The notes under the pieces: generated by a model | What the model was told of the DNA's origin: nothing | What the model saw: only the letters and a program-made list of their open reading frames with translations | The model's database searches: none | Translations under genes and position numbers: made by a program | Shown here: positions 680 to 20,028 of the stretch, in pieces | Numbering within the stretch: the first letter of the stretch is position 1 | How the letters are laid out: each line of letters starts with the position of its first letter | Source: a virus | Direction: 5' to 3' (one strand) | IMG/VR virus record: IMGVR_UViG_3300002145_000150 | Location: 1 to 22,442 of that record | Length of the DNA stretch: 22,442 nt

Positions 680-710
680 TAACTCCATCTGTAAGTGGTA
701 TCGTAAAAAC

Positions 711-1177: not shown

Positions 1178-1181
1178 CGAT

Positions 1182-3142: not shown

Positions 3143-3157
3143 TCGGAGACCCCTTCT

Positions 3158-3634: not shown

Positions 3635-3648
3635 CGGCGATGCTCCGG

Positions 3649-3707
3649 CCCCGTCCGGGCGATCAGGTTTCGGTCCCCGGCCTATTCGCACCGGGCGGGG
3701 TTATTTT
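3649..3707 (+). terminator. Probable rho-independent terminator after the tail tube gene
   Basis: CCCCGTCCGG (3649-3658) pairs with CCGGGCGGGG (3691-3700): ten pairs including one G-U, around a 32-base loop, followed directly by TTATTTT. The loop is long for a classical terminator, but the stem and T-rich tail fit. It lies 15 bases after the tail tube stop in a 132-base gap that has no ORF support, so it may lower transcription into the chaperone and tape measure genes. Confidence 0.55.
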
Positions 3708-3766
3708 CGCACCATTGAGCATCGCATAGAGACTGAATTTAGCTGCACTACATTTCGGAGCACACT

Positions 3767-4183: not shown

Positions 4184-4191
4184 AGGCTGAG

Positions 4192-4539: not shown

Positions 4540-7500
4540 GCGACTGGTGATTCGGCTCGTTGGTGATGGATCGTCTTACCAGAAGATGCTCCAGACGGCT
4601 GAAGCAACAACGGCATCAGCGGTCAAATCTATTGCCGAACAAACGCGATCGATCGGCAACAAGTTGTCATTATTCGTGACAGCTCCGCTTGTGGCGATCG
4701 CCGCATCTGCCCGCTCACAGGTCAGCGAGTATAAATCAGCACTGAGTCAGATGGTTGGTCTTGTCGGACTCTCTGAGCAAACCGTAGAAGGCTTCTCGAA
4801 AGACATTCAGCGGATCGCGATTGAGACCGGGAAAGCGCCCGTTGAACTGGCAAACGCGATGTTCTTCATCACGTCCGCAGGGCTTCGCGGAGCTGCCGCA
4901 GTAGAGGCTCTGGGGGTTTCGGCGAAAGCAGCATCGGCAGGTCTGGGCGGGACGCAGTCAGTCGCTGATGCGGTGACGTCAGCAATGAATGCTTACGGGC
5001 ACTCTAATCTCTCGGCGACTCGTGCGACTGAACTGCTGACTGCTGCCGTACGCGCTGGTAAAGCGGAAGCGTCGCAGTTTGCGCCGCAACTTGGCCAATT
5101 GCTCCCACTGACGTCCTCAATGGGCATTGGGTTTGATCAGGTCGCTGGATCATTGGCGTTTCTCACGAAGACAACTGGTAACGCGTCGCTCGCGGCCACT
5201 GGACTCAAGGGTGTCCTCAACGTTCTTGTTGGCGGATCGAAAGAGTCGATCAAGAACTTCGAGAAGATGGGATTCTCGTTGAATGACATCCAGGAAATGG
5301 CACGAAAGCAAGGGCTGCCGAAGACTCTGATGACCATTAGAAAGGCAGCGGAAAAGGCCGGTCTTCGCCTCAATGAGCTATTCACGGATACAGAGGGTTT
5401 GACGGCTGCGTTGCAATTCACTGGGGCAGCCGCTGCTGACGCTCAGCAAGTGTTTAATGACGTCGCGAATTCAGCCGGTATCGTTGACGAGGCGTTCACT
5501 GCCGCCGCTAATACCACGAAATTCCAGTGGGCAAAAGCGATGGCTGAGTTCCAGGTCATCCTCATTCAAATCGGTGAGATTCTCGTTCCGTTGAGCACTG
5601 GAATGCTGGACTTGGCTGATATCGGTCTGGCGACATGGCGAGGTCTTTCGGCAGAAGGCAGGAAGTTCATCGTCATCGCAGGAGCGATCGCGGCTTCTAT
5701 TGGGCCGACACTGATTGTGTTGTCCAGGCTGCCAATGGTCCTCGGGTTAGTAAAAAGCGGATTCCTTGTTCTGATTTCTCCAGCCGCACGATTAGTGAAC
5801 GCATTCATCACGATTGGTTCGGCTGTCACGACCGGAGTGCTTCGTACCGGGCAATCTATTTTCGGATGGTCCAGATTCGTTGGGCAATCGTTTTTCACGG
5901 TCACTCAACAGGCAGTAAAGATGAGTGCCGGAGTGATAGTAGCCGTCGCGAGTCTTGGAGCCAGATTACGTGGCCAGTTTAGCGGACTGTCATTTGGAGA
6001 CATCTGGACGAGCGGAATTGTCAAAGCAAAGCTCTGGCAAACTCAAGTGACCAGTATTGTTCAGTCCGTCATCGGAACGAGCAAGAAGTTTGGTGCTGAG
6101 GCAGGCTATTGGCTCCGGCGTCCGTACGATTATCTCGTGGCTGTTGCTCCGGGACTTGTTCAGCGAGTGGTGTCAATCACCACATTGGCCGCCGATAAGA
6201 TAAAACTCGCGTGGTTGAAGGTTTCTGGTGTTGGCATTTCTGCCGGACAGGCAATTCAGTCCCGCTGGGCGCAATCCTCTGCGGCAATCGCATCAATCAG
6301 TAAGAACACGTGGCAATCGGTCACTTCTACTGTGATGCGGGCGACACAACGAATTAGCGGTGCATCGGCACGACTCAGTCAACCTGCGTTGAGTGCGTTT
6401 TCAAGCCTTGCAACTAAATCACAGGTGATCTTTTCTGGCATCTGGTCTCGATTGAGCCCACCCATTGCAAACATCAAACAGAGAATGAGTCCGGTCGTTG
6501 CACTCTTCAGTCAAGACGCTCAGCGGATTGCGAGGGGGTTTCAGATCGCGGCGACAACAATCGCTCCGGCATTTTCCGCTGCTGGGAAGCTCGCATCACG
6601 TGCTGTGATGGTATCAATGAATGCGGCATTCACTGCGGTGAAGGTCGGTGCGAAAAGTGCTGGCACAGCTATTCGATCAATGGGCGGCGGGCTTATGCGA
6701 ATCGTTGATGCAATTGGAACGCTCAGCATGGTGCTGGCGTCCGCTGGCATGGCTACGGGGTTTCTTGGGACATTGGCCACGATCGCACCGATTCTTCTCG
6801 CTGTTGTTCCAGTCGTCTCAATTGTCGGAGCGGCGTTCGCCGCAGTGATGAGTCCGGTCGGACTGATCATCGCCGGTGTATCAGCGATCGGCCTGATCAT
6901 TGCAAAACTCGTGAGCAACGTAGACCTGTCCACAATGTGGACGCGAGGTCAGGAGTCAATCAACGAGTACGTTGCCGTCGTGTCTGGCTTCTTTGCGAAC
7001 TTCGAAGCCAACATGAAGATGCTCTACGCTTGGACAAGCAATCTTTGGACATCATTTGAATCGTCCGCAATCGCAGTGTGGAATGGAGTGTCTGGATTCA
7101 TCGGCAACTCAATTAGCGTGATCCTGTCATACCTTGCGGAACTCAGCCCGAATCTGATTGGACTATGGGATAGCGTCACAATCGGAGCTTCCGAATCATG
7201 GACATACGCACTGGAAATGGTGAAGTGGTTCTTTAGTTCCGCCGTTGGATTCTTCGGGAACTTCTCACAGAACATGCAGATTCTGTGGCAATTCATGACG
7301 GCGAACTGGCGCACGGTGCTGGCTGATATCGGAAACATGATCAAACTCACTGCTCAAAACATGGGCAGCAATTTCGGTGTTGGGGTGTCAATTGCTTACC
7401 GCTTGTTCCTCGCATTTGGCGGATGGCTGAAAGGACTGTTGAAGGGCGTTTTAGTCAAAATTTTCAGTGTGGACATGCTGAACGCTGCCGTTTCTGGACT

Positions 7501-8455
7501 CAAGAAACTTGTCGCCGTGTTCACTGACATGGGCAGTGGTTTCTACGAACTATTCAAGGGGTTCTTCACTGGTGCAACGGACGGCCTTGACCTGAACAAA
7601 ATGCTTGACAACGCAGTCAAGGATATTGATGCCGGGGCTGCGAGCATTAACTTCGCAGACACTGCCGCAAAGATCATCAGTGAAGAATCAGCGAATCTAA
7701 AGAGCCCACTGGACGGGTTTACGTCACAGCTCACGAAGCTGCCTGAATTCAATCTTGAAATGGGCGACGGATTAGCACTCCCTAAATTCATCACAAAACA
7801 GGTTGATGAAGCGAGTAAAGTTGCAGAAGACGCCAGTGCTGGCATTGGTGAGGCCATCCCGAAGGGCATTGGTGATGCTGCTAATGCCGTCGATGATGCT
7901 ACGAAATCCGTTAAAAAGTTTGGTGACATCAACGCGAAGGCCACTATCGGCGTGACCGGAGTTCAGGGGGTTGCGCGTGGCACATCGGAAGCACTCTCGC
8001 ACATTCAGGAATACTTGCTCGGTGCAAAATCACCAGCACCGACACTCCCCGGAGCACCGGCAATACCAGGCAGCCCGGTGACAGTAGGTGACCTGAAGAA
8101 AACGGACGCGGCACTTCGCATTGCGGAAAGAACGCCTGACATCAGCCATCTGATTCCGCAAGAGCGAGTCGCAGCAACGACGAACCTGACGCAGTTGCGA
8201 AGTATAGAACGCTCTTTCGCACTGACGGACCTGACGCCGGTCAAGGAGGAATATGGCAACGCGAGACAAACGGCGGACCTGACGGCGCTCCGGGAATCAA
8301 TCCAGATTGACCCGACGTTCGACATCAATGCCGGAGCCACTGAGACAAACGCTGAAGAGACAGCCGAACGCCTTGACCGATTGATTGAGGTCAGCGAGAT
8401 GCAGCTTGAAGTCGCGAAATCTAAGGGCGGATTGATACTGGCAGGACTGGAATAA
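4517..8455 (+). CDS. Tape measure protein
   Basis: At 1312 aa this is by far the longest protein, sitting right after the chaperones. Residues about 20-330 match the TP901-type tape measure core: a coiled helix (SSYQKMLQTAEATTASAVKS), ALSQMVGLVGLSEQTVEGF, then ELANAMFFITSAGLRG, and the ATGLKGVLNVLVGG segment. Hydrophobic stretches near residues 382-420 and 738-800 are the membrane-active type common in tape measures, which help DNA cross the host membrane. The C-terminal 250 residues are polar and acidic. It sets tail length; at about 0.15 nm per residue this implies a tail near 0.2 micrometre (inference). Its TAA overlaps the next ATG. Confidence 0.9.
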   Translation: MAKETELERLVIRLVGDGSSYQKMLQTAEATTASAVKSIAEQTRSIGNKLSLFVTAPLVAIAASARSQVSEYKSALSQMVGLVGLSEQTVEGFSKDIQRIAIETGKAPVELANAMFFITSAGLRGAAAVEALGVSAKAASAGLGGTQSVADAVTSAMNAYGHSNLSATRATELLTAAVRAGKAEASQFAPQLGQLLPLTSSMGIGFDQVAGSLAFLTKTTGNASLAATGLKGVLNVLVGGSKESIKNFEKMGFSLNDIQEMARKQGLPKTLMTIRKAAEKAGLRLNELFTDTEGLTAALQFTGAAAADAQQVFNDVANSAGIVDEAFTAAANTTKFQWAKAMAEFQVILIQIGEILVPLSTGMLDLADIGLATWRGLSAEGRKFIVIAGAIAASIGPTLIVLSRLPMVLGLVKSGFLVLISPAARLVNAFITIGSAVTTGVLRTGQSIFGWSRFVGQSFFTVTQQAVKMSAGVIVAVASLGARLRGQFSGLSFGDIWTSGIVKAKLWQTQVTSIVQSVIGTSKKFGAEAGYWLRRPYDYLVAVAPGLVQRVVSITTLAADKIKLAWLKVSGVGISAGQAIQSRWAQSSAAIASISKNTWQSVTSTVMRATQRISGASARLSQPALSAFSSLATKSQVIFSGIWSRLSPPIANIKQRMSPVVALFSQDAQRIARGFQIAATTIAPAFSAAGKLASRAVMVSMNAAFTAVKVGAKSAGTAIRSMGGGLMRIVDAIGTLSMVLASAGMATGFLGTLATIAPILLAVVPVVSIVGAAFAAVMSPVGLIIAGVSAIGLIIAKLVSNVDLSTMWTRGQESINEYVAVVSGFFANFEANMKMLYAWTSNLWTSFESSAIAVWNGVSGFIGNSISVILSYLAELSPNLIGLWDSVTIGASESWTYALEMVKWFFSSAVGFFGNFSQNMQILWQFMTANWRTVLADIGNMIKLTAQNMGSNFGVGVSIAYRLFLAFGGWLKGLLKGVLVKIFSVDMLNAAVSGLKKLVAVFTDMGSGFYELFKGFFTGATDGLDLNKMLDNAVKDIDAGAASINFADTAAKIISEESANLKSPLDGFTSQLTKLPEFNLEMGDGLALPKFITKQVDEASKVAEDASAGIGEAIPKGIGDAANAVDDATKSVKKFGDINAKATIGVTGVQGVARGTSEALSHIQEYLLGAKSPAPTLPGAPAIPGSPVTVGDLKKTDAALRIAERTPDISHLIPQERVAATTNLTQLRSIERSFALTDLTPVKEEYGNARQTADLTALRESIQIDPTFDINAGATETNAEETAERLDRLIEVSEMQLEVAKSKGGLILAGLE

Positions 8456-9483
8456 TGACGACAGCAGTTCACGGCGGACACCGCACATGGAGCATGGAGC
8501 GCGATGACGAAGGGCATCGCACATACAAGATCAAGCATCTTGTCCGTGCTGATCTCACTGACGGGCCGGCAAACGTCATTCAAACGACTGGACTGCCTCA
8601 GACTGGCGATCAGTGGAACTTCGACGGCGACATTGATATCTGGGCGTTCTGCCGTCCGGGCACGACGGTATCAATTCACCAGGAAAAGGAAGGCGATCCG
8701 AATCGCTGGTGGATCGTGGAGAACACGTTCTCAACGCGGCCATTGCGACGGTGTCAGGACGAGACGATTGAAGACCCGCTGCTGGAGCCGCAAAAGGTCT
8801 CAGGCTCGTTTAGCTCAACGACTGAAGAGGCTCAGATAGACAGGTTGGGCAACCTGATCGCGAACACGGCCTATGAGTTGTTTCGCGGGCCGACTGTGGA
8901 GTTCGACGTCTCGCGACCGCAGGTCAACATTGAGCAGAACGTGCTCGATCTTGAGCTTCCGTTGCTGTCGTCAATGGCGAATACGGTGAACGACGCCATT
9001 CTTTGGGGCCTTCCGGTTCGCACAGTCAAGCTAAGTTCGATCTCATGGGAACGAGTCCTGTACGGCGTTTGCACGTTCTACTTCGTGAGGAAGTTCGTCT
9101 TTGACATCAACTACGACACATGGGATCGCGAGCTGCTGAATGAGGGCACGAAAGCCTTGCACGGTGAATGGGCGATTGATGCGGCTGACCTTGCGGCTGG
9201 CAATCGCAGCTCACCTGCCCCTGCGTTACCATCCGGAAGCGATTGGAAGCTGAAGTCCGTCAACGAAGATGGTGACGCTCCAGACCCGGACAATCCGCAG
9301 CATTATTCCCGGTACAAAGATCGAAACGACGAGAATAGCCGCTGCCTGCTGGATGCGAACGGTGAGCCGCTGCCGATCGGTTACGGCGGAGCGATCGACC
9401 CGATATACATCACCGTTGAAAAGTATCCGGAGTCGAATTTCACGTTGCTCGGCATCCCATCTGATCTGGCGGTTTCCATATGA
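8455..9483 (+). CDS. Tail-tip protein of unknown family (342 aa)
   Basis: The ATG overlaps the tape measure stop (TAATG). The position is that of the distal tail protein in siphoviruses, but I do not recognise a Dit fold. Visible parts are an N-terminal beta region (RTYKIKHLVRADLTDGPANV), a barrel-like middle (PGTTVSIHQEKEGDPNRWWI), a helical segment, then a strand-rich part (VLYGVCTFYFVRKFVFDINYDTW), and a Pro/Asp-rich linker before a final strand (PIYITVEKYPESNFTLLGI). The stretch FYFVRKFVFDINYDTWDREL resembles proteins in which the tail hub opens outward. It is presumably a virion component. It overlaps the next gene by four bases (ATGA). Confidence 0.6.
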   Translation: MTTAVHGGHRTWSMERDDEGHRTYKIKHLVRADLTDGPANVIQTTGLPQTGDQWNFDGDIDIWAFCRPGTTVSIHQEKEGDPNRWWIVENTFSTRPLRRCQDETIEDPLLEPQKVSGSFSSTTEEAQIDRLGNLIANTAYELFRGPTVEFDVSRPQVNIEQNVLDLELPLLSSMANTVNDAILWGLPVRTVKLSSISWERVLYGVCTFYFVRKFVFDINYDTWDRELLNEGTKALHGEWAIDAADLAAGNRSSPAPALPSGSDWKLKSVNEDGDAPDPDNPQHYSRYKDRNDENSRCLLDANGEPLPIGYGGAIDPIYITVEKYPESNFTLLGIPSDLAVSI

Positions 9484-9899
9484 TTCAATCGAGAATCACT
9501 CACGTCAGTCGAACGTACTGCAGCGACGACGCAACAACGGAGTCATTCGGTAGCTCGTTTGCGTTTTGGTGCGCCACTGATGAGCAGCCGTACCAGCGGG
9601 TTTATCGTGACCTCACAGCGGAGAATGTCACTCTCGACTTTGGATGGCTTGCCGGGAAGAATCCGATTCTGTTGGTCGCCAATCTCTGTGAATTGAAGCA
9701 TCCTGCGGACCTCGAGGCGAAAGACGAACAGCGAGAGAAGTATGAACGCAGCATCCTGATGGTAGAGATCAACGGACTGACAATCAGAGTTCGTCCGGGA
9801 CAAACTCAGTATCTGGAGTTCGCCGAAGAGCCGCAGGCCGTACAGGTGCGATCGACTGGCGACGCCATACGTGCCACTCTTCAATTGCTGGCGAGGTGA
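9480..9899 (+). CDS. Hypothetical tail protein (139 aa)
   Basis: It starts at the ATGA overlap with the previous gene. Predicted mostly beta: DLTAENVTLDFGWLAGKNPILL, a charged helix (ADLEAKDEQREKYERS), then ILMVEINGLTIRVRPGQTQYLEF and VQVRSTGDAIRATLQLLA. No catalytic motif, signal peptide or membrane segment. By position and overlap it belongs with the tail-tip proteins. I do not recognise a family. Confidence 0.55.
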   Translation: MIQSRITHVSRTYCSDDATTESFGSSFAFWCATDEQPYQRVYRDLTAENVTLDFGWLAGKNPILLVANLCELKHPADLEAKDEQREKYERSILMVEINGLTIRVRPGQTQYLEFAEEPQAVQVRSTGDAIRATLQLLAR

Positions 9900-9902
9900 T
9901 CG

Positions 9903-10616
9903 ATGGAGAACGGGTACGCACTCTCAAAGCAGGACGTCGAGACGTTGCGTGAAGTCGTGCGGATCGTTCGCAGTAATCCGCAACTGTTGAAGAACCGTTC
10001 CAGCTCAATTTCCACGGCGAGGGACGTCGAGGATCACCAGGCTCCCGAGGTGTATATCGCCTATCCGCAGGAGTCGTCCGGCATCCCGGAACTCGCGCAT
10101 GTCGGTTCCGTATCGGGTTCTGGAACGACTATGGTTGCGCCGCGTGACATGCCTGGCAAAGCCCGATGTGATATCTTTAAGATCACGCGAGACGACCAGG
10201 GCAATCCCGTATTAGTGCCGATTCAAAAGTCAGTCACGGTATACAACCTGACGACGTCACAGTTGGATCAGGACTGGCTCGTGGTCGTAAGAGACAAGTC
10301 TGGAAACTGGCTGGCGACAACTGGCGGGGGTGGTGGTGGTGGAACGATTCAGTTCACGATTCTGAGTGCGGATTGTGAGACCGGATGCGTCGAAGCAGTG
10401 GTAACCGTGTTGGGTGCCGGCGAATCATCAGTCGAAGTTGGTGACACTGTGAACGTCTATGATGGACTCGGGTGTTTCTTCAATGTTCGCGAAGACCTGT
10501 TGATCGGATTGAATGGGATTGCACATCGTTTTCAAGGCGACGATCCATGTACAGTGTATGACTCTGAATCAACACATTGGCGAGTCGCCGCATTGTGTTG
10601 CTCGGTGGGGTGCTAA
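9903..10616 (+). CDS. Tail protein with N-terminal helix, poly-Gly hinge and Cys-containing C-terminal domain
   Basis: The product is 237 aa with a GAGG SD. An N-terminal helix (SKQDVETLREVVRIVRSNPQ) is followed by a Ser-rich linker. Residues about 49-140 form a beta domain (VTVYNLTTSQLDQDWLVVVR). A run of seven glycines sits at about 141-147. The C-terminal domain carries paired cysteines (DCETGCVEAV near the front; CCSVGC at the very end). I recall this modular layout from planctomycete prophage tail regions, but not a function. The poly-Gly run probably works as a flexible hinge between a tail-bound half and an exposed half. The stop is directly followed by the next start, a GTG. Confidence 0.55.
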   Translation: MENGYALSKQDVETLREVVRIVRSNPQLLKNRSSSISTARDVEDHQAPEVYIAYPQESSGIPELAHVGSVSGSGTTMVAPRDMPGKARCDIFKITRDDQGNPVLVPIQKSVTVYNLTTSQLDQDWLVVVRDKSGNWLATTGGGGGGGTIQFTILSADCETGCVEAVVTVLGAGESSVEVGDTVNVYDGLGCFFNVREDLLIGLNGIAHRFQGDDPCTVYDSESTHWRVAALCCSVGC

Positions 10617-11972
10617 GTGTTACTAACAAGACCAAAAGCACAGTGTTCATGCGGGGAATGCTACGAACGAGTTACTGGATGCAGTGCGTGCTCTGGTTGC
10701 ATTCCGGCAACAATGTGCGTCACGCTGCGAACCAACGAGCAGTGCTGTCCATTCTCGACCGGGATATATCACCTCAATGGAACTCGCTGGCTCTCAGAAT
10801 CTGAGATAAGTTGGTGCGGCGGCATTGTTGATCTGAAAATCCTCTTAGAAGAAGTCGGTGACTCATGCTATTTTGTTGTGCGTGTTCGTTACGTGGACAG
10901 TGACGATTATGTCACACTTGCATATGAAGAGTTAGGAACGACCGACTTCTCAGTTGATTTGTCGGAGTCCGAGTACGAGCTGGAAACAACACTTCGAGTG
11001 TTTCCGAAATCAGGCGTTCTGAATCCTAACATCTACACGGATTGCGGCACATGTCTCGATAGCTGCACGTGCCTGCCATACACTCTTTGCCTCACTTATG
11101 TGACCGAGGGAGATTGCATTCCATCACGTTTTCGTAAACCAACGTCATGGAACGGATGCAATGGATGGGACACAGTTGTCTTCGCGTTCAGCAAGTTGGA
11201 CGGGACGGTTGAGCGACGTGAGGTTACTATCGCGCTTGGCGAGCCGCCGTTATGCGGGCTTGAAATCCGCGTAACAAAAGATGACTACGACGATACTGTC
11301 TTCACATATCCACTGCTGAATCCACAGAAGGCTTGCAAAGTCGATTTCTTCGAAGTCATTCAAAACAATCCGGACATTCTCGGGTTGGAGACTTTGAAGA
11401 TCACCGCAGATTGTTTGTGTCTTGATTTGCCAGACGAAGAGTGTCCGCTGGCATGCCCGCAAGTGCATGATCTGTGTGAGTTGGAACCTGTCATCGCCTC
11501 ATTTATGGTTGATGGATGTGACATATTAGACGGCGTGTCAAGAACGAATGACCCATTCGGTCCGCCGACACTCGATGATGCACCAGGATATACGCGATGT
11601 CCATCGCAAGTATGGGAATGGGATTTCACCGTAGAGGTGATTTGCGAATCCGGGTTCGGTGCGGTCAGTGGTCTGCCATATGAAATACGTGGCGACTATG
11701 TCATACACATGCGGCTATATTACCCATTGTTATCTTGTGAAGATGTTGATGTCAATGATTTAACACCAGACCCGACACGATACATTCTAGTTTGGGAAAT
11801 CGCGGCTAATTCATGTGGCACAACATGGACAGGGTTTGACTTTCCTGACCCGGCGACAGCAAATTGCTCCCCGTTTTTTCTGGAGTTCGAAATCACACCC
11901 AGTGGGGAAGATCAGCCGTCCTGTTATGGGTTGTGTTGTCAGGATACGGTTCGAGTTAGGATTACCCAATGA
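10617..11972 (+). CDS. Cysteine-rich tail fibre-like protein with duplicated module
   Basis: Start is GTG at 10617, right after the previous TAA, with GGGG upstream. The 451-aa product has about 34 cysteines (over 7 percent). A module is duplicated: C28-IPATM-C34-VTLRTNEQ-C43 and C152-LPYTL-C158-LTYVTEGD-C167 have identical cysteine spacing (6 and 9), and both are followed by about 80 residues with a CYFVVRVRYVDSDDY / CGLEIRVTKDDYDD segment. A third, diverged Cys region begins near residue 266 (CLCLDLPDEECPLAC). There is no signal peptide. The last gene before the sugar-enzyme cassette and last in the tail block, it is probably a fibre or tip protein stabilised by disulfides or metal; that is inference. 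Its base composition is lower in GC than its upstream neighbours. Confidence 0.6.
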   Translation: MLLTRPKAQCSCGECYERVTGCSACSGCIPATMCVTLRTNEQCCPFSTGIYHLNGTRWLSESEISWCGGIVDLKILLEEVGDSCYFVVRVRYVDSDDYVTLAYEELGTTDFSVDLSESEYELETTLRVFPKSGVLNPNIYTDCGTCLDSCTCLPYTLCLTYVTEGDCIPSRFRKPTSWNGCNGWDTVVFAFSKLDGTVERREVTIALGEPPLCGLEIRVTKDDYDDTVFTYPLLNPQKACKVDFFEVIQNNPDILGLETLKITADCLCLDLPDEECPLACPQVHDLCELEPVIASFMVDGCDILDGVSRTNDPFGPPTLDDAPGYTRCPSQVWEWDFTVEVICESGFGAVSGLPYEIRGDYVIHMRLYYPLLSCEDVDVNDLTPDPTRYILVWEIAANSCGTTWTGFDFPDPATANCSPFFLEFEITPSGEDQPSCYGLCCQDTVRVRITQ

Positions 11973-13375
11973 CATTGCAAACATTTGAGTGCAACTGCCC
12001 GTTAGGAAGAACCGTTATATGCGAAAGGCATGGAGTCGTTAAATCGTCGCGTGAGGTGCAAATTTGCCAAGGCAAAAACGTTAAGGATGAGGTTCGTGAG
12101 CAATGGCTAAAGCAATGGGGTGAAATCCCTGATTCTGTCGAAACACAGCCAATTGTTCGATCAGAGAAACAATTGCAGCCGCGACAGAATTATGCTTTTA
12201 GTGCATTGACGCCAACGGATATTCCTTGTGAGTTCCGTGGTGACGTTATTCGTGAGGCACCGTGTACCGTGTGTGGTTCACGTAACAAAAAAACATCAAT
12301 TTACAAGTGCGATGATCCAGCGAATTCAACGGGCGAATGCACTTTCGTGCATAAGATTCACGGAATGAGATCATGCCAACGGTGCCCAATAGGGCAAGGG
12401 GCCTATGAACGGTTGATGGATACGATCGCGGTGAAGAAAGAGACACTGCGAACATCTGGGCGTGGCGGTATAAAATTTAGCGGAAAACGAGGCGGCCCCT
12501 TCAATCCGAGTGAGGAAAAGCCGAAGTTCATCTCACGCCGCCAACTCGCAGACGACATCCTGCTCCTTGCTCAGCGAATTCCGTCTAATACATCACGAAT
12601 CATCGGCGTTGCGAGGTCTGGCGTGCCAGTGGCGGCGCAGGTAGCTCTGTATCTGCATCTACCGCTGACGATCTTTCGTCAGAGCACGTACGACATGATC
12701 GAAGCCGGCAATGGTTGGCGGCTGACCGGCAATACGGGTGGAGACGGGCCGCCTGTCGTCATCGACGATACGTGCATGAGCGGCAACTCCTTCAAATTCG
12801 TCATGCCGGTTGTGAAGAAAGAATTCCCGGATGCCGTCTCAGCGTGTCTCTACTGCAATCCGGCGGCCAGGGTGAAGCCGGACATGTGGATTCACGATCT
12901 TCCGTGGCCGCATTTCCTTGAATGGAACATGTTCAACTCGGTGATGACTGACAGCCTTGCCATAGACTTCGATGGAATTCTGTGCCGAGATTGCTACCCT
13001 GGCGAGGATGACGACGGGGAGAGGTACTTGAACTTCATTCGTACGGCGACGCCGCTCTATCCGATCCGAAAAACGAAGGTAAAGCTGGTTGTCACCGCGC
13101 GGCTGGAGAAGTACCGGAAAGAAACAGAAGGCTGGCTGAAACGGAACGGAATCGCGGTCCAACAACTCGTCATGGCACCGTATCAAACGCTGCGAGAACG
13201 GCAGCAGCACGACATGGCAAAGTTCAAAGCCAAGCATTACACGCAGTTTCTCCAGCAAAATCATCGAGTAAAGCCGCCATGTTTCGTTGAGTCTGACCCG
13301 CATCAGGCTCGTCGCATTCACGAACTGACGCGGGGGATCGTTATCTGTCCTGGAACGGGGGAATGTCATGCTTGA
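11969..13375 (+). CDS. Fusion: Cys modules + phosphoribosyltransferase + HAD-type phosphatase
   Basis: The product is 468 aa, from an ATGA overlap. Residues 1-50 hold a small Cys module (CPLGRTVICERHG); residues 87-139 a second one with CTVCG, an ECTF segment and CQRC, probably zinc-binding. Residues about 190-325 are a type I PRTase: IIGVARSGVPVAAQVAL and the PRPP loop PVVIDDTCMSGNS (262-274). Residues about 329-460 look HAD-like: AIDFDGILC (331-339, nucleophile Asp333 and Asp335), LVVTARLEKY (motif II Thr), a Lys-rich segment near 418-422, and FVESDPHQA (439-447). A PRTase makes or cleaves a nucleotide-type N-glycosidic bond with PRPP, and a HAD partner can dephosphorylate the product; the substrate is unknown. 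GC content rises sharply near base 12480, close to the domain junction. Confidence 0.75.
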   Translation: MTLQTFECNCPLGRTVICERHGVVKSSREVQICQGKNVKDEVREQWLKQWGEIPDSVETQPIVRSEKQLQPRQNYAFSALTPTDIPCEFRGDVIREAPCTVCGSRNKKTSIYKCDDPANSTGECTFVHKIHGMRSCQRCPIGQGAYERLMDTIAVKKETLRTSGRGGIKFSGKRGGPFNPSEEKPKFISRRQLADDILLLAQRIPSNTSRIIGVARSGVPVAAQVALYLHLPLTIFRQSTYDMIEAGNGWRLTGNTGGDGPPVVIDDTCMSGNSFKFVMPVVKKEFPDAVSACLYCNPAARVKPDMWIHDLPWPHFLEWNMFNSVMTDSLAIDFDGILCRDCYPGEDDDGERYLNFIRTATPLYPIRKTKVKLVVTARLEKYRKETEGWLKRNGIAVQQLVMAPYQTLRERQQHDMAKFKAKHYTQFLQQNHRVKPPCFVESDPHQARRIHELTRGIVICPGTGECHA

Positions 13376-13931
13376 TCGTCAGAAAGCTGTCGAAAGCTGT
13401 TATCTCATACCCGGCTGGTGTTGGCCGGTCGAACTTGGTGCGATCTATGACACGATCGCCGAAAGGAAACCACAGACTCACGTTGAAGTCGGGAGCTTCT
13501 GCGGACGGAGTTTGTTTGCGGCGGCAGCAGCGATGCCTGATAAAGGACAGCTGATTGCCATTGAGCCTTTTATCTACTGGGATAATTTACAGAACCATTT
13601 GCTGGGTCTGAACTGGTGGAAGCAGGTATTTAACACGACGCTCAACAGCATCCGAAGCCACCGTCCAGACCTGGAAATCGTGCATTTGGAATTGCCATCG
13701 ATCAAAGCGGCTTTAGAAGTAAGACAAGCTGACTCCGTCTATATCGATGCCTGCCACGAGTATGCTGAGGTATCATCAGACATTCAGGAGTGGGGGGCAG
13801 TGGTCGGCAATGGGCTTCTCTGGGGGCATGATTACTGTGCGAGCCAGATGGGAGTCCTCGACGCCGTCAACATGTCACTGCCAGGAGATTTCACAGTTCT
13901 GGATGGTACACGCATATGGGTTCGGAAATGA
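13368..13931 (+). CDS. Class I SAM-dependent methyltransferase
   Basis: The product is 187 aa and overlaps the preceding gene by eight bases, with a GGGGGA SD. Residues 38-48 (HVEVGSFCGRS) are the SAM-binding glycine motif in the 'EVGSxxGrS' form of the Methyltransf_24 type. LIAIEPF (62-68) holds the acidic ribose-binding position. DSVYIDACHEYAEVSSDI, then WGHDY, is the family's 'D.i.iDg.H.y..v..D...' strand. The substrate cannot be read from sequence; this family often methylates sugars or nucleotide-sugars, and neighbours here are sugar enzymes. Class and cofactor are fairly sure; target unknown. Confidence 0.75.
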   Translation: MLDRQKAVESCYLIPGWCWPVELGAIYDTIAERKPQTHVEVGSFCGRSLFAAAAAMPDKGQLIAIEPFIYWDNLQNHLLGLNWWKQVFNTTLNSIRSHRPDLEIVHLELPSIKAALEVRQADSVYIDACHEYAEVSSDIQEWGAVVGNGLLWGHDYCASQMGVLDAVNMSLPGDFTVLDGTRIWVRK

Positions 13932-14518
13932 AAGCGATCCTTGCCCTTAAAGGGCCGTCCGCGCATGCCGCATCTGACGTGATTAGCGATTTGAAGCCCG
14001 ATATCATTGCGACTGTCAACGATGCGATTTATCTTCTTGATAAAGACACAGCAGTTGACTACTCATTTTTTACTCATTGGGCGTCTTCATCAGAAGACCG
14101 TCGTCTTCACCCACATGCAAGCTGCCGAATCAAGACGTTTGTGACTCCCGAACTTTCAGCTACATTCCCGCACAACGATTGGGTCAAATCAGAAGGCCAC
14201 AAGTGGATTCGATATGAACACCACACCTGCGACGGCGACCCAGCCGCGTTATCCGCCCGCATATTTTGTGGCGGCATTACGCATCACCACACGGCGAGCG
14301 CCGCTGTCCACTGGTTGTGCAAGAATTTGTCGCTTGACTCGCTTTACGTTATCGGCCTTGATGGTGGCGACCTCAGCAACTATGCAACAGGTGTAAAGCC
14401 AGCGTGTCACAAAGACACGATGCCAGGCGACGTGCTTGATGTATTCCGGAGAGTCATGCTGGACCTGATACCAATCCTGAATCGTGTCTATGGGACAGAC
14501 ATAAAGGTCATAACATGA
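13928..14518 (+). CDS. Rossmannoid DUF115/MptE-like or sialyltransferase-like protein
   Basis: I take the ATG at 13928, which makes an ATGA overlap with the methyltransferase; an upstream ATG at 13916 would add four residues. From 13928 the product is 196 aa. It starts ILALKGPSAHAASDVISDLK, the 'l.GpSl' opening of DUF115-type proteins, then DIIATVNDAIYLL and YSFFTHWAS (the typical 'd.a.Nda...' arrangement). Near the middle ARIFCGGITHHHTASAAVHW, then DSLYVIGLDGGDLSNYA. Relatives include motility-associated and sialic-acid-type transferases, so a role in handling an activated nonulosonic-type sugar next to the cytidylyltransferase is plausible but not shown. Confidence 0.5.
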   Translation: MKAILALKGPSAHAASDVISDLKPDIIATVNDAIYLLDKDTAVDYSFFTHWASSSEDRRLHPHASCRIKTFVTPELSATFPHNDWVKSEGHKWIRYEHHTCDGDPAALSARIFCGGITHHHTASAAVHWLCKNLSLDSLYVIGLDGGDLSNYATGVKPACHKDTMPGDVLDVFRRVMLDLIPILNRVYGTDIKVIT

Positions 14519-15189
14519 AAGTGATCGTCCCTGCGAAGTCAACGAGCACGCGGGTAGCAAATAAAAACTGGCGACCGTTCTTCAATGGAAAGAATCTGGT
14601 TGCGCTTACGATTGAAAAGCTGCTGGCGGCTGGATTTGACAAAGGTGATATATACGTCAGCAGTGACTACGTCAGCGGACTTGATTCACTGCGATCGACA
14701 TACGGGACTCATTCACTATTCCGAAATGAAAGGTTGTGCGACAACGAGACGCCGCTTACTGAGTGGATACGGCACACGACAAGCCAGATTGATTTTTTTG
14801 ATGAAGTGGCATGGGCTCAAGTATGCGATCCACTCTTTGACGAATACAAAGAGGCAGTTGATTGCTGGAACAACCGTGTCGGACATTATGACAGTCTGTG
14901 CGTGATCTACCGCACAAAGCAATTTGCGTTGGACTCATACCGAAACCCGGTCGGGTGGCAATTCGGCGACTATCACAAGTCCAGTCAACACCTGCAATAC
15001 ACGTATCTGATGCCGTTCACGTTTTCTGTGTTGACGCGTCAGTCTTTGGAGCGTTGCCCATACCATATCGGAATGTCACCGCTTTGGTATGAAAGTGATC
15101 GCCATACAATCGACATTGACACTGAGGCAGATTTCGACTTCGCCATGTCGCTTTACGAAGTCATGCACTTGACAGGTAAGAAACAATGA
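14515..15189 (+). CDS. NeuA-like sugar cytidylyltransferase
   Basis: The product is 224 aa with an AAAGG SD and an ATGA overlap. The N-terminus IVPAKSTSTRVANKNWRPF follows the CMP-nonulosonate synthetase pattern IxPARxxSxRxxxKNxxP, then LTIEKLLAAGF and IYVSSDYVSGL. The C-terminus HTIDIDTEADFDFAMSLYE carries the classic 'iDIDtxxDlxxAe' ending (DID at 200-202) that binds metal. Such enzymes join a sugar acid to CTP, giving a CMP-sugar. 'AKSTSTR' in place of 'ARGGSKR' shows divergence from the housekeeping form. No nonulosonate synthase is in the window, so the sugar must come from the host or elsewhere in the genome. Confidence 0.75.
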   Translation: MKVIVPAKSTSTRVANKNWRPFFNGKNLVALTIEKLLAAGFDKGDIYVSSDYVSGLDSLRSTYGTHSLFRNERLCDNETPLTEWIRHTTSQIDFFDEVAWAQVCDPLFDEYKEAVDCWNNRVGHYDSLCVIYRTKQFALDSYRNPVGWQFGDYHKSSQHLQYTYLMPFTFSVLTRQSLERCPYHIGMSPLWYESDRHTIDIDTEADFDFAMSLYEVMHLTGKKQ

Positions 15190-16046
15190 TCTGGGCATAT
15201 GCCGTCACGACCTGCACGCAACGACTCTATACAACGTTTCCATACACTCTATCTGATCTGGCGATGGCTGGTTTCGATGAGCCACACGTGTCACTGGACA
15301 GCAACCAGCTATGCAGTCTTGAGCAAGTCGCCGGATGCAAGTCACTCACGACTCACTATCCGGCCCTCGGGGCGTTCGGCAACTGGTTTGCGACGCTCTG
15401 GGAACTCCGAGTCCGGAACCCGAAGGCGACGATGTTCGCCATTTTTCAGGATGACGTCATCGTCACGTATGGGCTGCGGGAGTATCTGGAGCGGAACCCA
15501 TGCCCAGACAACGGCTACATGAACCTGTTCACAGCACCTTCTAATCAGGACTTGTTCGGCAGTGCCGATGATGTGAACTGGAAGGAAGCCAGAACGCTCA
15601 CTGACGAGACTGATCTCCAGACCGGGCGAGGGGCTCTTGGCCTGGTGTTTTCGAAGGACGTCGTCGGGAAGTTGCTCGCGAGCCCGATCCTGACTGAGAA
15701 GCCGCTGACGGTCAGAAACCCAACGAAGAACATCGACGGGGCAGTTGTTCAGGCGTTGAACCGTGTCGGAGTTCGCGAGTACGTTCACCGCACAAGCCTG
15801 GTCCAGCACCGCGAAGGGGAAAGCACTGTCGGTCGATTAGTTCATCGACAGGCGACATCGTTCGAGCCGTATATCACCGGCCTGACTCACCGTGAAGAGG
15901 ATTCGCAAGCAACTGATCTGCCGGAGCAAGTAGATGAGACGCGACGAACTGAGGACAGTGCAGGAGATTTGCAGCCGGCACCCGAAGCCGACGATACCGC
16001 CGCTGGAATCACCGCCGTATACGCCGAAGAACAGCAGCCAGAGTAA
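15186..16046 (+). CDS. Glycosyltransferase, GT-A-like
   Basis: The product is 286 aa, ATGA overlap with an AGG SD. The sequence IWAYAVTTCTQRLYTTFPYT, then ATMFAIFQDDVIVTYGLREY (82-101), fits a GT-A fold with QDDV as the metal-binding acidic motif, a form seen in GT25-like and phage glycosyltransferases. A middle part has GYMNLFTAPSN and GRGALGLVFSKDVVGKLL. The last 60 residues are low-complexity, acidic and probably disordered, and the final 113 bases overlap the next gene in another frame. The donor could be the CMP- or NDP-sugar from the neighbouring enzymes; that is inference. Confidence 0.65.
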   Translation: MIWAYAVTTCTQRLYTTFPYTLSDLAMAGFDEPHVSLDSNQLCSLEQVAGCKSLTTHYPALGAFGNWFATLWELRVRNPKATMFAIFQDDVIVTYGLREYLERNPCPDNGYMNLFTAPSNQDLFGSADDVNWKEARTLTDETDLQTGRGALGLVFSKDVVGKLLASPILTEKPLTVRNPTKNIDGAVVQALNRVGVREYVHRTSLVQHREGESTVGRLVHRQATSFEPYITGLTHREEDSQATDLPEQVDETRRTEDSAGDLQPAPEADDTAAGITAVYAEEQQPE

Positions 16047-17004
16047 GCTCGGGCTCGCTGTCGAGTCGATGAAGTTTCATACGACTGACGAAGGCTGGCA
16101 GATTTTCGATGGACTGGAGTCAGCAGGCTACACGCTCTGCGGGCATGGGCTTCCGGAAGGCTCAACGTCAGTCCCCGACCTGCTCGCCAGATATTCACCG
16201 CAGACGCTCGTGCTGCAAGATAAACGTGAATGGGACGTGCAGCGTAAAGACTTCCGCGATGCGTCCGCTCGATTCACCGGTGTTGAAGCACTCCGTGAAC
16301 GCGACGACGTGTTCAAACTCACGATTCTGAAGGACTCACATCAGCGGCCAGAGTATCATCGTGACTCCGCACAAGAGATCGGCTGTCATGCCTGGATCGT
16401 CTACTATCACCCGACGATCGTTTCCCATCTGGCTCCTTACGTCCGGACTCAGCACCTCGTTCGAACGTACCACACGCTGAACCCTGCTCACGTTCCGGCA
16501 TACTCAATCGATCGGCTCGATCGGTGCCTGCTGTCAGGGGCAGTGTCCGGCGCGTATCCACTGCGGCAACGGATGGTCAACAACCTGCGAGCGTTCAAGA
16601 CGATCGACTATCAAAAGCATCCCGGTTACCACCGGCAAGGCTGCTGTACTCCGGAGTACCTCAAGATGCTCTCCAGGTATAAGGTGTCGTTCTGCACGGC
16701 GAGCCACTATGGCTATCTGCTGCGGAAGATCATTGAATCAGTCGCTTGCGGTTGCCGTGTGATCACAGACATGCCCGTCGATGAAGTCGTTCCTGAGATT
16801 GACGACAACCTGATCCGTATCAATCCGATGGATTCAATCCATGCGATTGAGGATCAGATTGCTTATGCGATCGTCGATTATGATCCAGAGCGACAAGAGC
16901 ACTTCGCAAAGCGAGCTATTGAACGATTCGACTATCGATTCGAAACGGCACGACTTGCGGGTGAAATTGAGAACCTTCGACTGATCTACACAGGGGACAA
17001 TTGA
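15934..17004 (+). CDS. Glycosyltransferase, GT-B type (group 1-like)
   Basis: The product is 356 aa from an ATG with a GGAG SD seven bases upstream; it overlaps the previous gene by 113 bases in a different frame. The alternative start (ATG 16069, residue 46) would lie after the previous stop but has no SD. Residues 1-38 are basic and Pro-rich. The N-terminal Rossmann half includes SPQTLVLQDKREWD. The C-terminal half holds YLKMLSRYKVSFCTASHYGY, then KIIESVACGCRVIT (265-278, the E-x7-type nucleotide-sugar motif) and DEVVPEIDDNLIRI, as in Glyco_trans_1_2 proteins. Donor and acceptor unknown. Confidence 0.7.
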   Translation: MRRDELRTVQEICSRHPKPTIPPLESPPYTPKNSSQSKLGLAVESMKFHTTDEGWQIFDGLESAGYTLCGHGLPEGSTSVPDLLARYSPQTLVLQDKREWDVQRKDFRDASARFTGVEALRERDDVFKLTILKDSHQRPEYHRDSAQEIGCHAWIVYYHPTIVSHLAPYVRTQHLVRTYHTLNPAHVPAYSIDRLDRCLLSGAVSGAYPLRQRMVNNLRAFKTIDYQKHPGYHRQGCCTPEYLKMLSRYKVSFCTASHYGYLLRKIIESVACGCRVITDMPVDEVVPEIDDNLIRINPMDSIHAIEDQIAYAIVDYDPERQEHFAKRAIERFDYRFETARLAGEIENLRLIYTGDN

Positions 17005-17589
17005 ATGAGGATTTTCGTCACGGGCACTGGCCGTTGTGGCACTTGCACGGCCTACCAGGCACTCAGCCACGCAAAGGGATTCACGGTAGGGCATGAGTCC
17101 CGCGCCGGTCTCTCAGAACATCACGAGTACCCGGACAACCACATCGAAGTTTCATCGCAGTTGGTGATGGAGATACCGCTCCTGCTCCGGAAGTATCCGG
17201 GGGCGTATTGGGTTCATCTGCAACGCGAACGAAAAGCGACCGTCAATTCTCTGATCATGAACTGCGAAGAGTCGATGGCCGCTTACTCGCTGCAATGGCT
17301 TCAGAGGCCAATTGCAGCGGTCGACGATGAAGACAGTGAACTCCGTGGCAGGCAGCTCCGGGCGGCTGCGTCGATCTACTATGACAACGTCAACGCGATG
17401 TTGTCGAAGATACTGCCATCGTTCCGGACCTATTATCTGCCGTTGGAGTATGTTGATGGTAAATGGGCCGACTGCTGGGAGTTCCTGCAACTGACAGGTG
17501 ACTTCGAAGCCAGCCAGCGGGAGTGGAGCAGGCAATACAACGCGGCGGAATTCCGAGGCCGTGACAACTACTCAGGAGCGAATCAATGA
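17005..17589 (+). CDS. Sulfotransferase-like P-loop protein
   Basis: The product is 194 aa with an AGGGG SD, starting right after the previous stop. FVTGTGRCGTCTAYQALS (4-21) is the 5'-phosphosulfate-binding loop of PAPS sulfotransferases (GxxRSGTT-like with Cys in place of Ser). YPGAYWVHLQRERKATVNSL fits the 3'-phosphate-binding strand 'hlvRdPrxxxxSl'. YYLPLEYVDGKWADCWEFLQ is the usual helix near the C-terminus in the short bacterial family. It would move sulfate from PAPS to a hydroxyl or amine, here possibly a glycan. The short length leaves little room for an acceptor domain. No PAPS-making genes are seen, so PAPS would be host-derived. Confidence 0.65.
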   Translation: MRIFVTGTGRCGTCTAYQALSHAKGFTVGHESRAGLSEHHEYPDNHIEVSSQLVMEIPLLLRKYPGAYWVHLQRERKATVNSLIMNCEESMAAYSLQWLQRPIAAVDDEDSELRGRQLRAAASIYYDNVNAMLSKILPSFRTYYLPLEYVDGKWADCWEFLQLTGDFEASQREWSRQYNAAEFRGRDNYSGANQ

Positions 17590-18626
17590 GAGAGCAGGAA
17601 GCGTTGCAGCAGATGGTGTCGCCGTCACAACGGCGAGCAGGCAAGCCGCGCGGCGGAGTGATTCAGATTCACCTGACTCGGGCGTGTGACTTGGCATGCT
17701 TTGGCTGCACTCAGGGGAGCAACCTGAGATGCCCGGCATCATTCATCTCATTGGAAAACTTCGAACTGGCTTGTAAGTCGCTTCGGAACTACTTCGGGGT
17801 GACGGGAATTTTTGGCGGAAATCCGAGTTTGCACCCTGAATTTCCGTCCATCTGTGAGATTCTCCGGAAGTACATCCCGAAGAACCGGACAGGCATCTGG
17901 TGCAACCATCCGCGCGGACATGGCAAGATCATGGCTCAGACTTTCGATCCGGGCTGCAGCAACTTGAACTGCCACCTGGTTCAGGAAGCATACGACGAGT
18001 TCAAGCGTGACTGGCCGGAGTCTCGACCGTTCGGGCTCGATAAGGACTCACGGCATTCGCCGCCGTACGTGGCGATGCAGGACGTGTTCCGAAAGGCGTG
18101 CAACGTCTGCAAAGGGACCGGCGATCTTCATGACGATGATGGTGAGTTGCAAAACTGCCCGTATTGCCGGGGAACTGGATCACGAGTAGACGATGAGGCG
18201 TGCTGGGAGAAAGCGGCCAACTGCGACATCAACAAACACTGGTCAGCGATGGTTTGCGAGATCAAAGGCGAACTCTACGGCTACTTCTGCGAGATCGCCG
18301 CAGCTCAGGCGATACTCCACCAGAACGACCCGGCATGGCCGATCACCGGAATTCCGGTAGCGACGAATCCGGACTGGTGGAAGCTTGGCATGAAAGACTT
18401 TGCGAACCAGGCTCGGCTTCACTGCTTCGCTTGCGGAGTCCCACTGCGAGGATATGGGGCTCTGGCACAAGGTGGCAGCGAGCAGAAGGAGCAGGTTTCA
18501 GTGACTCATGCTGACATCTACAAGCCAAAGAAGAAAGATCGGCTGGTTCAGATTGTGGCGGACATCAATGAGTTGGACTCGCACGATTTGAAATTCACCG
18601 AGTACCTGCAAGGGGCAGCGAAGTGA
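17586..18626 (+). CDS. Radical SAM enzyme with DnaJ-type zinc insert
   Basis: The product is 346 aa, ATGA overlap with a GGAG SD. The radical SAM cluster motif is C34-DLA-C38-FG-C41 (CX3CX2C) after IQIHLTRACDLACFGC. GIFGGNPSLHPEF (75-86) replaces the usual GGE SAM motif. Residues 172-198 carry two CxxCxGxG repeats (CNVCKGTG and CPYCRGTG), as in DnaJ zinc domains. A further cysteine set, C213, C224, C235 and C280-x2-C283, recalls SPASM-type auxiliary clusters. Radical SAM enzymes cleave SAM to a 5'-deoxyadenosyl radical for difficult C-H chemistry; here peptide, sugar or nucleoside substrates are all possible. It does not match a family I can name. Confidence 0.7.
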   Translation: MREQEALQQMVSPSQRRAGKPRGGVIQIHLTRACDLACFGCTQGSNLRCPASFISLENFELACKSLRNYFGVTGIFGGNPSLHPEFPSICEILRKYIPKNRTGIWCNHPRGHGKIMAQTFDPGCSNLNCHLVQEAYDEFKRDWPESRPFGLDKDSRHSPPYVAMQDVFRKACNVCKGTGDLHDDDGELQNCPYCRGTGSRVDDEACWEKAANCDINKHWSAMVCEIKGELYGYFCEIAAAQAILHQNDPAWPITGIPVATNPDWWKLGMKDFANQARLHCFACGVPLRGYGALAQGGSEQKEQVSVTHADIYKPKKKDRLVQIVADINELDSHDLKFTEYLQGAAK

Positions 18627-18650
18627 CGCTGGTCGGACCGAAGGGCTCAG

Positions 18651-18719
18651 GTGAATGCCGGAAGTTACGTGATCTTCAAGAATGAGCAATACGCTCGGCA
18701 GAGATTGCGACTGGACTAA
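18651..18719 (+). CDS. Possible 22-aa microprotein or read-through tail of the radical SAM gene
   Basis: GTG at 18651 has AAGGG upstream at good spacing, and the frame ends TAA at 18717-18719, two bases before the next ATG. The peptide begins VNAGSYVIFKNEQYARQRLR and looks protein-like. It lies in the same frame as the radical SAM ORF, whose stop is TGA followed by C, so the same residues could also be reached by stop-codon read-through. A chance ORF remains possible. Confidence 0.25.
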   Translation: MNAGSYVIFKNEQYARQRLRLD

Positions 18720-18721
18720 AT

Positions 18722-19459
18722 ATGCTCGATAATGCCGTCATTGTCTGCGTTGACTACTCGGACTTTCTGGCCGTCACGCTGCCATACAACCGGCACCACT
18801 TCAGCGAAGTGCATGTAGTGACGTCGATGACGGACAATGAGACGGAACAGGTCGCGAATGAGAACCTCGCCCATGTCTGGCAAACTGACCTGTTCTACGC
18901 TGACGGTGCCGACTTCAATAAGTGGCGAGCGTTAGAGTGGGCTCTGGACAGCATCGGTCGCGACGGCTGGCTATGCCTGATGGACGCCGACGTTTTATGG
19001 CCAAAGTCGATCCAGTATGACTTCGAACCTGGCAAGCTATATACCCCGATGCGGCGGATGTTCAAAGACCTCGCGAAGCCAATACCGCAGGAATCCGAAT
19101 GGTGCCGCTATCCGATCCATCGGAACGTCAATGAGTGGGCCGGGTACTCACAGATATTTCACGGATCTGATCACCACTTGCCAGCTCCACCGTGGCATGA
19201 GACCAACTGGAAGCACGCAGGCGGGGCTGACTCGTTCTTTCAGTTCCAATGGGAGCCGGCATCGAAAGTGCGTCCACCGTTCGAAGTGCTCCACCTGGGC
19301 GAGGATGGTGCGAACTGGTGCGGGCGAGTGACTCCGCGATTCGACGGCACGATTCCGGACGCGGCGGCTGAGCGACAGAGGAAGCTGAAGGGCTATTTCA
19401 CAGGACGCCGGAGTCATGCGGACCAGGCTAAGCGATTCGATCATGAGAAGCTGATGTGA
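18722..19459 (+). CDS. Glycosyltransferase, GT-A-like
   Basis: The product is 245 aa. It starts with a GT-A-like beta strand (AVIVCVDYSDFLAVTLPYNR), then VHVVTSMTDNET, and has WLCLMDADVLWP (83-94) with the DAD metal-binding motif typical of GT-A glycosyltransferases. Ahead of that, DFNKWRALEWAL resembles the 'fNKg.al..gl' helix of similar phage-encoded enzymes. HLGEDGANWCGR near the C-terminus may supply a second metal ligand. No SD is obvious. It ends the plus-strand cassette. Donor and acceptor are unknown. Confidence 0.65.
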   Translation: MLDNAVIVCVDYSDFLAVTLPYNRHHFSEVHVVTSMTDNETEQVANENLAHVWQTDLFYADGADFNKWRALEWALDSIGRDGWLCLMDADVLWPKSIQYDFEPGKLYTPMRRMFKDLAKPIPQESEWCRYPIHRNVNEWAGYSQIFHGSDHHLPAPPWHETNWKHAGGADSFFQFQWEPASKVRPPFEVLHLGEDGANWCGRVTPRFDGTIPDAAAERQRKLKGYFTGRRSHADQAKRFDHEKLM

Positions 19460-19655
19460 TGCGATTGATGCTCATCTCAACAGAATGATTCGGTGCGTTC
19501 TGCCGGATTCGTGACCGCACCAACCGCTCTGTCACTCGTGTCACTCCGCACCGCATGCACCGACTTTCGTGGGTACCACCCCATCTGTGGCCGAACACGC
19601 AAAGACAGCTAACAATCTGTTGCAGCAGAGCGGCGAATCCTCGTCGTGTTTTCAT
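19428..19655 (-). CDS. Small DUF1660-like protein with zinc-binding motif (75 aa)
   Basis: On the minus strand an AAAGG precedes the ATG by about seven bases. CVFGHRWGGTHESRCMRCG fits the pattern 'C.fGHkw......CkRCG' of small phage proteins (DUF1660-like). The N-terminus is hydrophobic and Arg-rich. The gene converges on the glycosyltransferase gene and overlaps its 3' end by 32 bases. The final 20 residues, which cover the overlap, are less convincing. Function unknown. Confidence 0.55.
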   Translation of the reverse strand: MKTRRGFAALLQQIVSCLCVFGHRWGGTHESRCMRCGVTRVTERLVRSRIRQNAPNHSVEMSINRITSASHDRIA

Positions 19656-19704
19656 AGGAATACCTTTCGTCGCCGCCTGCTGAACAGGGGCGTTCTACAG
19701 CAAT

Positions 19705-20028
19705 TCAGCGTTTTGACGATCGGAAACAATTCTGGCACGTCGCGATGCCTTCGTCATCCCACGTCACCGAATCATCACAGCCTGCCGGGCAGACCCAGAA
19801 TCTAATGCCGTCCGCAGCGAAGATTGGGGCCAACGGCTCAATCATTTCACACATCGCCCGGTAATGCTCACACATCGCCGCAATGTCCTCAGCTCGCACG
19901 TTGCCAAGAAGTCGGGCGTCCTTCACCCATGATTTGGCGCACTGTTCCACCTCAACCGCAGTCCGGTAATGCTGTAGAACAAATGCGTCAACTTGAGCGG
20001 CGGTCTCTTTCGTGTCCTGTTTTTTCAT
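19705..20028 (-). CDS. Small zinc-ribbon-like protein (107 aa)
   Basis: I choose the ATG at 20028 (MKKQDTKETAAQ) because GGAG lies six bases before it on the minus strand. The open frame continues upstream to 20262, but that part is a shadow of other frames. The N-terminal two thirds are helical (VDAFVLQHYRTAVEVEQCAK, AAMCEHYRAMCEMIEPL). Near the C-terminus FWVCPAGCDD and ATCQNCF form a CX3C plus CX2C pair typical of a zinc ribbon. It follows the minus-strand direction of its neighbour, 49 bases away. Function not recognised. Confidence 0.6.
   Translation of the reverse strand: MKKQDTKETAAQVDAFVLQHYRTAVEVEQCAKSWVKDARLLGNVRAEDIAAMCEHYRAMCEMIEPLAPIFAADGIRFWVCPAGCDDSVTWDDEGIATCQNCFRSSKR

Follow-up and report, generated by a model that had tools for sequence, protein, structure and literature searches.

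Why would a virus carry a set of enzymes for activating, transferring and modifying sugars directly behind its tail genes? The question is raised by the IMG/VR record IMGVR_UViG_3300002145_000150, a 22.4-kb virus fragment whose full 22,442 nucleotides are called the window here. The cassette lies at positions 11969-19459 and comprises nine open reading frames on one strand, none of which is broken. With a rough probability of 55%, we consider it to be a phage-encoded cytoplasmic pathway for the assembly and decoration of a glycan, which is expressed with the tail genes and whose product is most likely placed on a virion (tail) protein. The initial annotation had described nine consecutive genes, and all of them are present and intact. 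Its catalogue of enzymes was mostly upheld by Pfam and TIGR matches, several of the Pfam matches scoring under Pfam's curated cut-off. The genes are as follows (+ strand throughout; PRTase, phosphoribosyltransferase; L numbers denote other loci that were compared; figures after models are E-values).

11969-13375, + strand: PRTase-HAD fusion with a Cys/His-rich N-terminal region (PF00156, 8.9e-8; motifs DFDG, TAR and ESD; homologues in L039, L037 and L118)
13368-13931, + strand: class I methyltransferase, Methyltransf_24 (PF13578, 2.6e-9; L039 copy 76% identical)
13928-14518, + strand: DUF115-like protein with GPS and HHHT motifs (its neighbour in L039 and L115-L117 is the cytidylyltransferase)
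14515-15189, + strand: CMP-sugar synthetase-like cytidylyltransferase, a distant PseF (PF02348, CTP_transf_3, 3.5e-6; TIGR03584, 4.5e-11)
15186-16046, + strand: core glycosyltransferase 1 (GT-A1), GT-A-like (alignment; QDD and PSLVQH-type motifs)
15934-17004, + strand: core glycosyltransferase 2 (GT-B), GT-B-like, start uncertain (PF13524, Glyco_trans_1_2, 1.6e-4)
17005-17589, + strand: sulfotransferase, accessory (PF13469, Sulfotransfer_3, 1.6e-4)
17586-18626, + strand: core twitch-type radical SAM protein, SpeY/BtrN-like (Radical_SAM, 7.4e-6; invariant Cys; structure model)
18722-19459, + strand: core glycosyltransferase 3 (GT-A2), GT-A-like, with a DAD motif (PF13704, Glyco_tranf_2_4, 3.4e-3)

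From the cysteine-rich gene directly upstream onward, the junctions measure -4, -8, -4, -4, -4, -113, 0 and -4 bp, followed by a 95-bp gap before GT-A2. The genes had been called mostly overlapping. This holds for most junctions, but GT-A2 does not overlap, the 113-bp overlap of GT-A1 and GT-B hinges on the first ATG of GT-B and is uncertain, and the DUF115-like start was moved, 13928 being likelier than 13916; the later start gives a 4-bp overlap, the same as in L039. No forward-strand promoter-like site was found in 8400-18705. Because the counts of the promoter and terminator scans were not above those of shuffled sequences, we only infer that one mRNA is common to the tail genes and the cassette.

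The closest relative is a 57-kb contig (L039), which was found with the upstream tail gene g8455 alone as query. Eight of the nine cassette genes are kept there in the same order, directly behind the same tail genes (PRTase-HAD, methyltransferase, DUF115-like, CMP-sugar synthetase, two glycosyltransferases, radical SAM and a further glycosyltransferase), with overlapping starts and stops and 45-76% amino-acid identity to the window. The sulfotransferase is absent, and an extra methyltransferase stands at the position of the window's 95-bp gap. For the eight common genes, the proportion of nonsynonymous differences (pN) is 0.14-0.39, and the synonymous proportion (pS) is 0.74-0.84 (saturated). 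As pN is far below pS, the cassette genes have been maintained under strong purifying selection, and degradation of the shared genes is contradicted. The L039 contig also contains a separate DNA-hypermodification cluster, far from the tail cassette (11186-19621 of L119, which is positions 1-20000 of the contig). It encodes a thymidylate synthase homologue, NT5C, myo-inositol-1-phosphate synthase, a TET-associated glycosyltransferase, an amino acid:DNA transferase and a 5-hydroxymethyldeoxyuridine (5-hmdU) DNA kinase. The location of a myo-inositol-1-phosphate synthase beside DNA-hypermodification genes is unusual.

The radical SAM query identified 34 loci in viral contigs and three in contigs of metagenome-assembled genomes (MAGs), with 44-55% identity; dereplication at 85% left 27 loci, window included. 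At least one core or methyltransferase partner was found in the fetched flank of 23 of these, and none in the other four. The partners were GT-A2 (20 loci), GT-A1 (17), GT-B (14) and Methyltransf_24 (11), counts that are lower bounds owing to contig ends; the partner genes are co-oriented in all loci except L025. GT-B shares 41-54% identity with 13 relatives, and GT-A2 shares 38-60% with its relatives. In the g8455 lineage, 43 loci, the window among them, extend for 6 kb or more downstream; in this set, which was not dereplicated, GT-A1 occurs in 29 and the radical SAM gene in 10. In the radical SAM tree, different tail types are intermixed on supported branches; the module has thus either changed tail backgrounds or had its tails replaced around it, and the glycosyltransferases have stayed with it. 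The genes that vary near the core are of types that tailor glycans: LicD, UDP-glucose dehydrogenase, a CDP-type cytidylyltransferase, methyltransferases (FkbM among them) and additional glycosyltransferases. In the cassette of L031, the sulfotransferase is found at another place and is 37% identical to the window copy. The conserved core, which recurs behind tail genes, is therefore GT-A1, GT-B, radical SAM and GT-A2, and the remaining genes are swappable accessories. The linkage of the cassette holds in relatives, and scattering was not found. The earlier view of a single pathway stands in that the set is functionally coherent; the set is not fixed, and three glycosyltransferases and the radical SAM protein form a core with interchangeable accessories.

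A small domain of the form LGD..AL..vGiTeeRv..wLG.pCgC..R.ekLN was also observed, standalone or fused to GT-A1 (L019:7895-8125, L031:4054-4335, L034:7464-7685 and the GT-A1 C-terminus of L002). Its relatives in >500 viral stretches are mostly proteins of roughly 120 aa. This C-G-C-x2-R-x3-LN domain was considered as a tag of the cassette and was ruled out: among 515 viral stretches that encode it, 80 were read, and most of these lie outside a cassette.

The radical SAM protein is the most closely characterised member of the core. C34, C38 and C41, which form the CX3CX2C radical SAM motif, are invariant in 29 sequences. C213, a hairpin (220-233), C235 and a helix (269-280) with C280 and C283 give a twitch layout, whose four Cys are likewise invariant and form a predicted auxiliary cluster site; the layout agrees with how twitch enzymes are described in PMC6231123. 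The AlphaFold model, built from 29 homologues, reached a mean pLDDT (predicted local distance difference test) of 92. The Foldseek search of this model against the PDB ranked SpeY first (E 9.2e-8; template modelling scores 0.54/0.62), and BtrN was the next enzyme (7.6e-4). The window protein shares the fold, the CX3CX2C motif and the four-Cys twitch site with these dehydrogenases, which oxidise a sugar or cyclitol hydroxyl, but its identity to them is 13-15%, and it occurs in phages together with glycosyltransferases. BtrN oxidises a cyclitol hydroxyl, and both enzymes belong to aminocyclitol antibiotic pathways (PMC9012708). By comparison with this modelled fold, the window protein may oxidise a sugar hydroxyl; in this subfamily, sequence networks do not readily predict fold or function (PMC6231123). 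Residues 170-200 of the window protein contain a DnaJ-like CxxCxGxG zinc-ribbon insert; a similar Cys-pair insert is present in L002 and absent in L039.

The other enzymes point to activation and transfer of sugars. The cytidylyltransferase matches TIGR03584 (PseF) over its full length with 42.8 bits, far under the cut-off of 205.7; its PF02348 match is above cut-off. A joint role for the DUF115-like protein and the cytidylyltransferase is supported by their gene adjacency, seen in L039 and again in L115-L117, which are unrelated phages. The DUF115-like protein had no Pfam match at E up to 1, the Maf model PF01973 included. Its structure model has a pLDDT of 68, and the highest-probability match was the human sialyltransferase ST8SiaIII (probability 0.75), which is not significant (E 0.034). 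It is possible that this protein is a CMP-sugar transferase. In L115 (6908-12522), the neighbours of the pair are a dCMP deaminase gene, apparent ribonucleotide reductase (RNR) and dUTPase genes and, upstream, an NAD-dependent epimerase.

The HAD half of the PRTase-HAD protein has no Pfam HAD match and is read from the DFDG, TAR and ESD motifs alone. Single-sequence scans with this protein or the cytidylyltransferase found nothing; profiles built from the window and L039 did better. The PRTase-HAD profile, searched against characterised chains at E up to 10, matched nucleotide-type PRTases only, with no similarity to the solved gPRT/CriT enzymes. As sequence similarity to solved glycan enzymes is not detectable, a ribofuranose role is an analogy; by that analogy, the protein is possibly a phosphoribosyl pyrophosphate (PRPP)-dependent ribosyl transferase with a phosphatase. 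In L118 (2471-4348), a Cys-rich N-terminus, a GT8-like domain and PRTase-HAD form one 625-aa protein, which is followed by a cytidylyltransferase. Pfam gave no match for GT-A1, and PDB sequence searches with GT-A1, GT-B and GT-A2 gave no hits or no significant ones.

For the proposed pathway, we infer every substrate, the order of the steps and the acceptor. Host nucleotide sugars would serve the three core glycosyltransferases as donors for an oligosaccharide, and the twitch radical SAM protein would, like SpeY and BtrN, oxidise a hydroxyl of a sugar, giving a ketone. The PseF-like cytidylyltransferase and its DUF115-like partner would activate, and then add, a host-derived acidic CMP-sugar, and PRTase-HAD may add ribofuranose from PRPP. 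The methyltransferase and the sulfotransferase would cap the glycan. The full picture is rather unlikely to be right in every part: a wholly cytoplasmic tail-protein glycan with a keto sugar oxidised by the radical SAM protein, an acidic residue that comes from a CMP-sugar and ribofuranose that comes from PRPP, made by a module that is mobile between unrelated tail types and has swappable tailoring enzymes.

The initial annotation had also stated that no sugar synthase, flippase or lipid carrier gene is present and that the target is probably cytoplasmic. In the window and L039, the NeuB synthase (PF03102) is absent (the control was detected in 9 of 14 genomes), and there are no multi-pass membrane proteins but the tape measure in the window or the L039 pieces. 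These absences support a cytoplasmic acceptor and argue against a phage-encoded flippase or membrane glycosyltransferase; the host could supply the sugar for the CMP-sugar step. A search of 294 genomes from the phylum to which the Schlesneria MAG with L021 belongs gave no homologue of GT-B or the cytidylyltransferase, a weak negative, with no positive control detected and the window's host not established. Clear host chromosomal homologues of these two proteins thus did not appear. For the radical SAM protein, a 392-genome sample of the phylum gave one full-strength match, in the MAG already known.

The likeliest acceptor, given the linkage to the tail genes, is a virion protein. The claim that a sugar-activating, transferring and modifying cassette is linked to tail genes was sustained by its co-orientation, overlaps and functional coherence. 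The genes upstream include a tail terminator-like protein and the following.

4517-8455, + strand: tail tape measure protein (PHROG tape measure families, best 1.4e-47)
8455-9483, + strand: g8455, conserved tail-region protein and lineage marker (70 related viral loci; L039 copy 75% identical)
9903-10616, + strand: g9903, tail-region protein with a poly-Gly linker (homologues in L002, L019, L034, L035 and L039)
10617-11972, + strand: cysteine-rich tail-region protein, candidate acceptor (34 Cys of 451; L039 copy 54% identical)

Hypervariable Cys-rich proteins (~7-11% Cys, up to ~1170 aa) are encoded behind g8455 in most of the lineage, with or without a cassette (window; L061, L067, L090-L100). 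The Cys-rich tail protein was ruled out as a cassette-specific substrate, as cassette-free phages of the lineage carry such proteins too. A 154-aa protein for which a single membrane segment is predicted is encoded at positions 639-1103 of the window, close to the beginning of the tail region.

Several points weigh against a virion glycan. No acceptor protein was identified, and the Cys-rich neighbour, also present in relatives without the cassette, is no specific partner. Host lipid carriers could be borrowed, L039 may be incomplete, and two of the glycosyltransferases have weak or no Pfam matches. The main rival explanation is that the host surface polysaccharide is altered during infection (receptor masking, superinfection exclusion) through host lipid carriers and exporters, the tail linkage then reflecting selection on host recognition or late expression. 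Accessories of the LicD and UDP-glucose dehydrogenase types are also found in envelope polysaccharide loci. In pelagimyophages, host recognition clusters hold tail fibres, glycosyltransferases and radical SAM cassettes in a variable region like that of the cassette, and the tail-region glycosyltransferase genes were interpreted by the authors as modifying the host O-chain (PMC7029224). However, these are large T4-like myophages, and the likeness is one of description. O antigen side-chain glycosylation uses GtrA/GtrB/GT-C membrane proteins (PMC11127046), whereas no candidate for a membrane-embedded glycosyltransferase, flippase or polymerase was found in the window or the L039 pieces. Late co-expression with the tail genes would also leave little time for surface remodelling. 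A change of the host surface is therefore possible, but unlikely.

The product might also be a small molecule of nucleoside or aminocyclitol type and not a glycan linked to a polymer, as SpeY and BtrN work in aminocyclitol antibiotic pathways (PMC9012708) and the PRTase-HAD profile fits nucleotide-type PRTases best. This appears improbable: neither a cyclitol synthase nor an aminotransferase was seen among the cassette genes, a glycan accounts better for the three or more glycosyltransferases per locus and the changing tailoring enzymes, and the linkage is to tail genes, not to exporters. A modified nucleotide, an alternative raised in the initial annotation, or a modified DNA base is disfavoured and highly improbable. 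It would fit the PRTase domain and the nucleotide-metabolism genes around the L115 pair, but the cassette has no base-modifying entry enzyme, and DNA is a poor acceptor candidate because L039 has its own hypermodification cluster elsewhere. The strongly varying accessory content might suggest unrelated auxiliary genes at an insertion hot spot, with no common product. For the core, this is largely refuted by the order kept between the window and L039 at 45-76% identity, the purifying selection on each common gene and the recurrence of the core, and we regard it as the least probable of these explanations.

The preferred reading, a glycan on a virion protein, has partial precedents. According to the account of Freeman et al. 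2023 given in PMC12363180, phage-encoded glycosyltransferases glycosylate capsid and tail tube proteins of the mycobacteriophages Che8, Corndog and Myrna. Both systems have phage-encoded glycosyltransferases; the present cassette adds radical SAM, CMP-sugar, PRTase-HAD and sulfotransferase functions. Its GT-A1, GT-B and GT-A2 have no homologue in 50,697 isolate phage records at E 1e-3, and the radical SAM search of isolate phages gave no usable match. Maf transfers nonulosonates onto flagellin, a structural protein, in the cytoplasm (PMC4065374). The proposed likeness to Maf/pseudaminic acid glycosylation is a CMP-nonulosonate donor with a cytoplasmic transferase acting on a structural protein (PMC4065374, PMC11339370). 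However, the DUF115-like protein has no Pfam Maf match, and the cassette lacks a nonulosonate synthase and has extra glycosyltransferases and tailoring enzymes. In bacterial polysaccharides, gPRT and a HAD phosphatase add ribofuranose from PRPP (PMC10299916, PMC11127046). These bipartite ribofuranosyltransferases (Bcs3 CriT/CrpP, Klebsiella O4/O7) have PRTase and HAD-like halves together, adjoining glycosyltransferases, as the cassette appears to have; the phage PRTase-HAD has no detectable similarity to them and retains the DD motif of nucleotide PRTases.

Searches of the open literature gave no account of this cassette. We place it within phage-encoded glycosylation, as a variant whose radical SAM component is conserved, rather than in a category of its own. 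Since no family member occurs in the isolate phage collection searched, isolate-based annotation misses it. Phage virion glycosylation has so far been a matter of a few mycobacteriophages with phage-encoded glycosyltransferases. If the proposed pathway is correct, a recurrent multi-enzyme assembly line behind tail genes would widen the known modification by viruses of their own proteins. With its conserved radical SAM member, a candidate sugar oxidase, it would also give practical access to unusual sugar chemistry.

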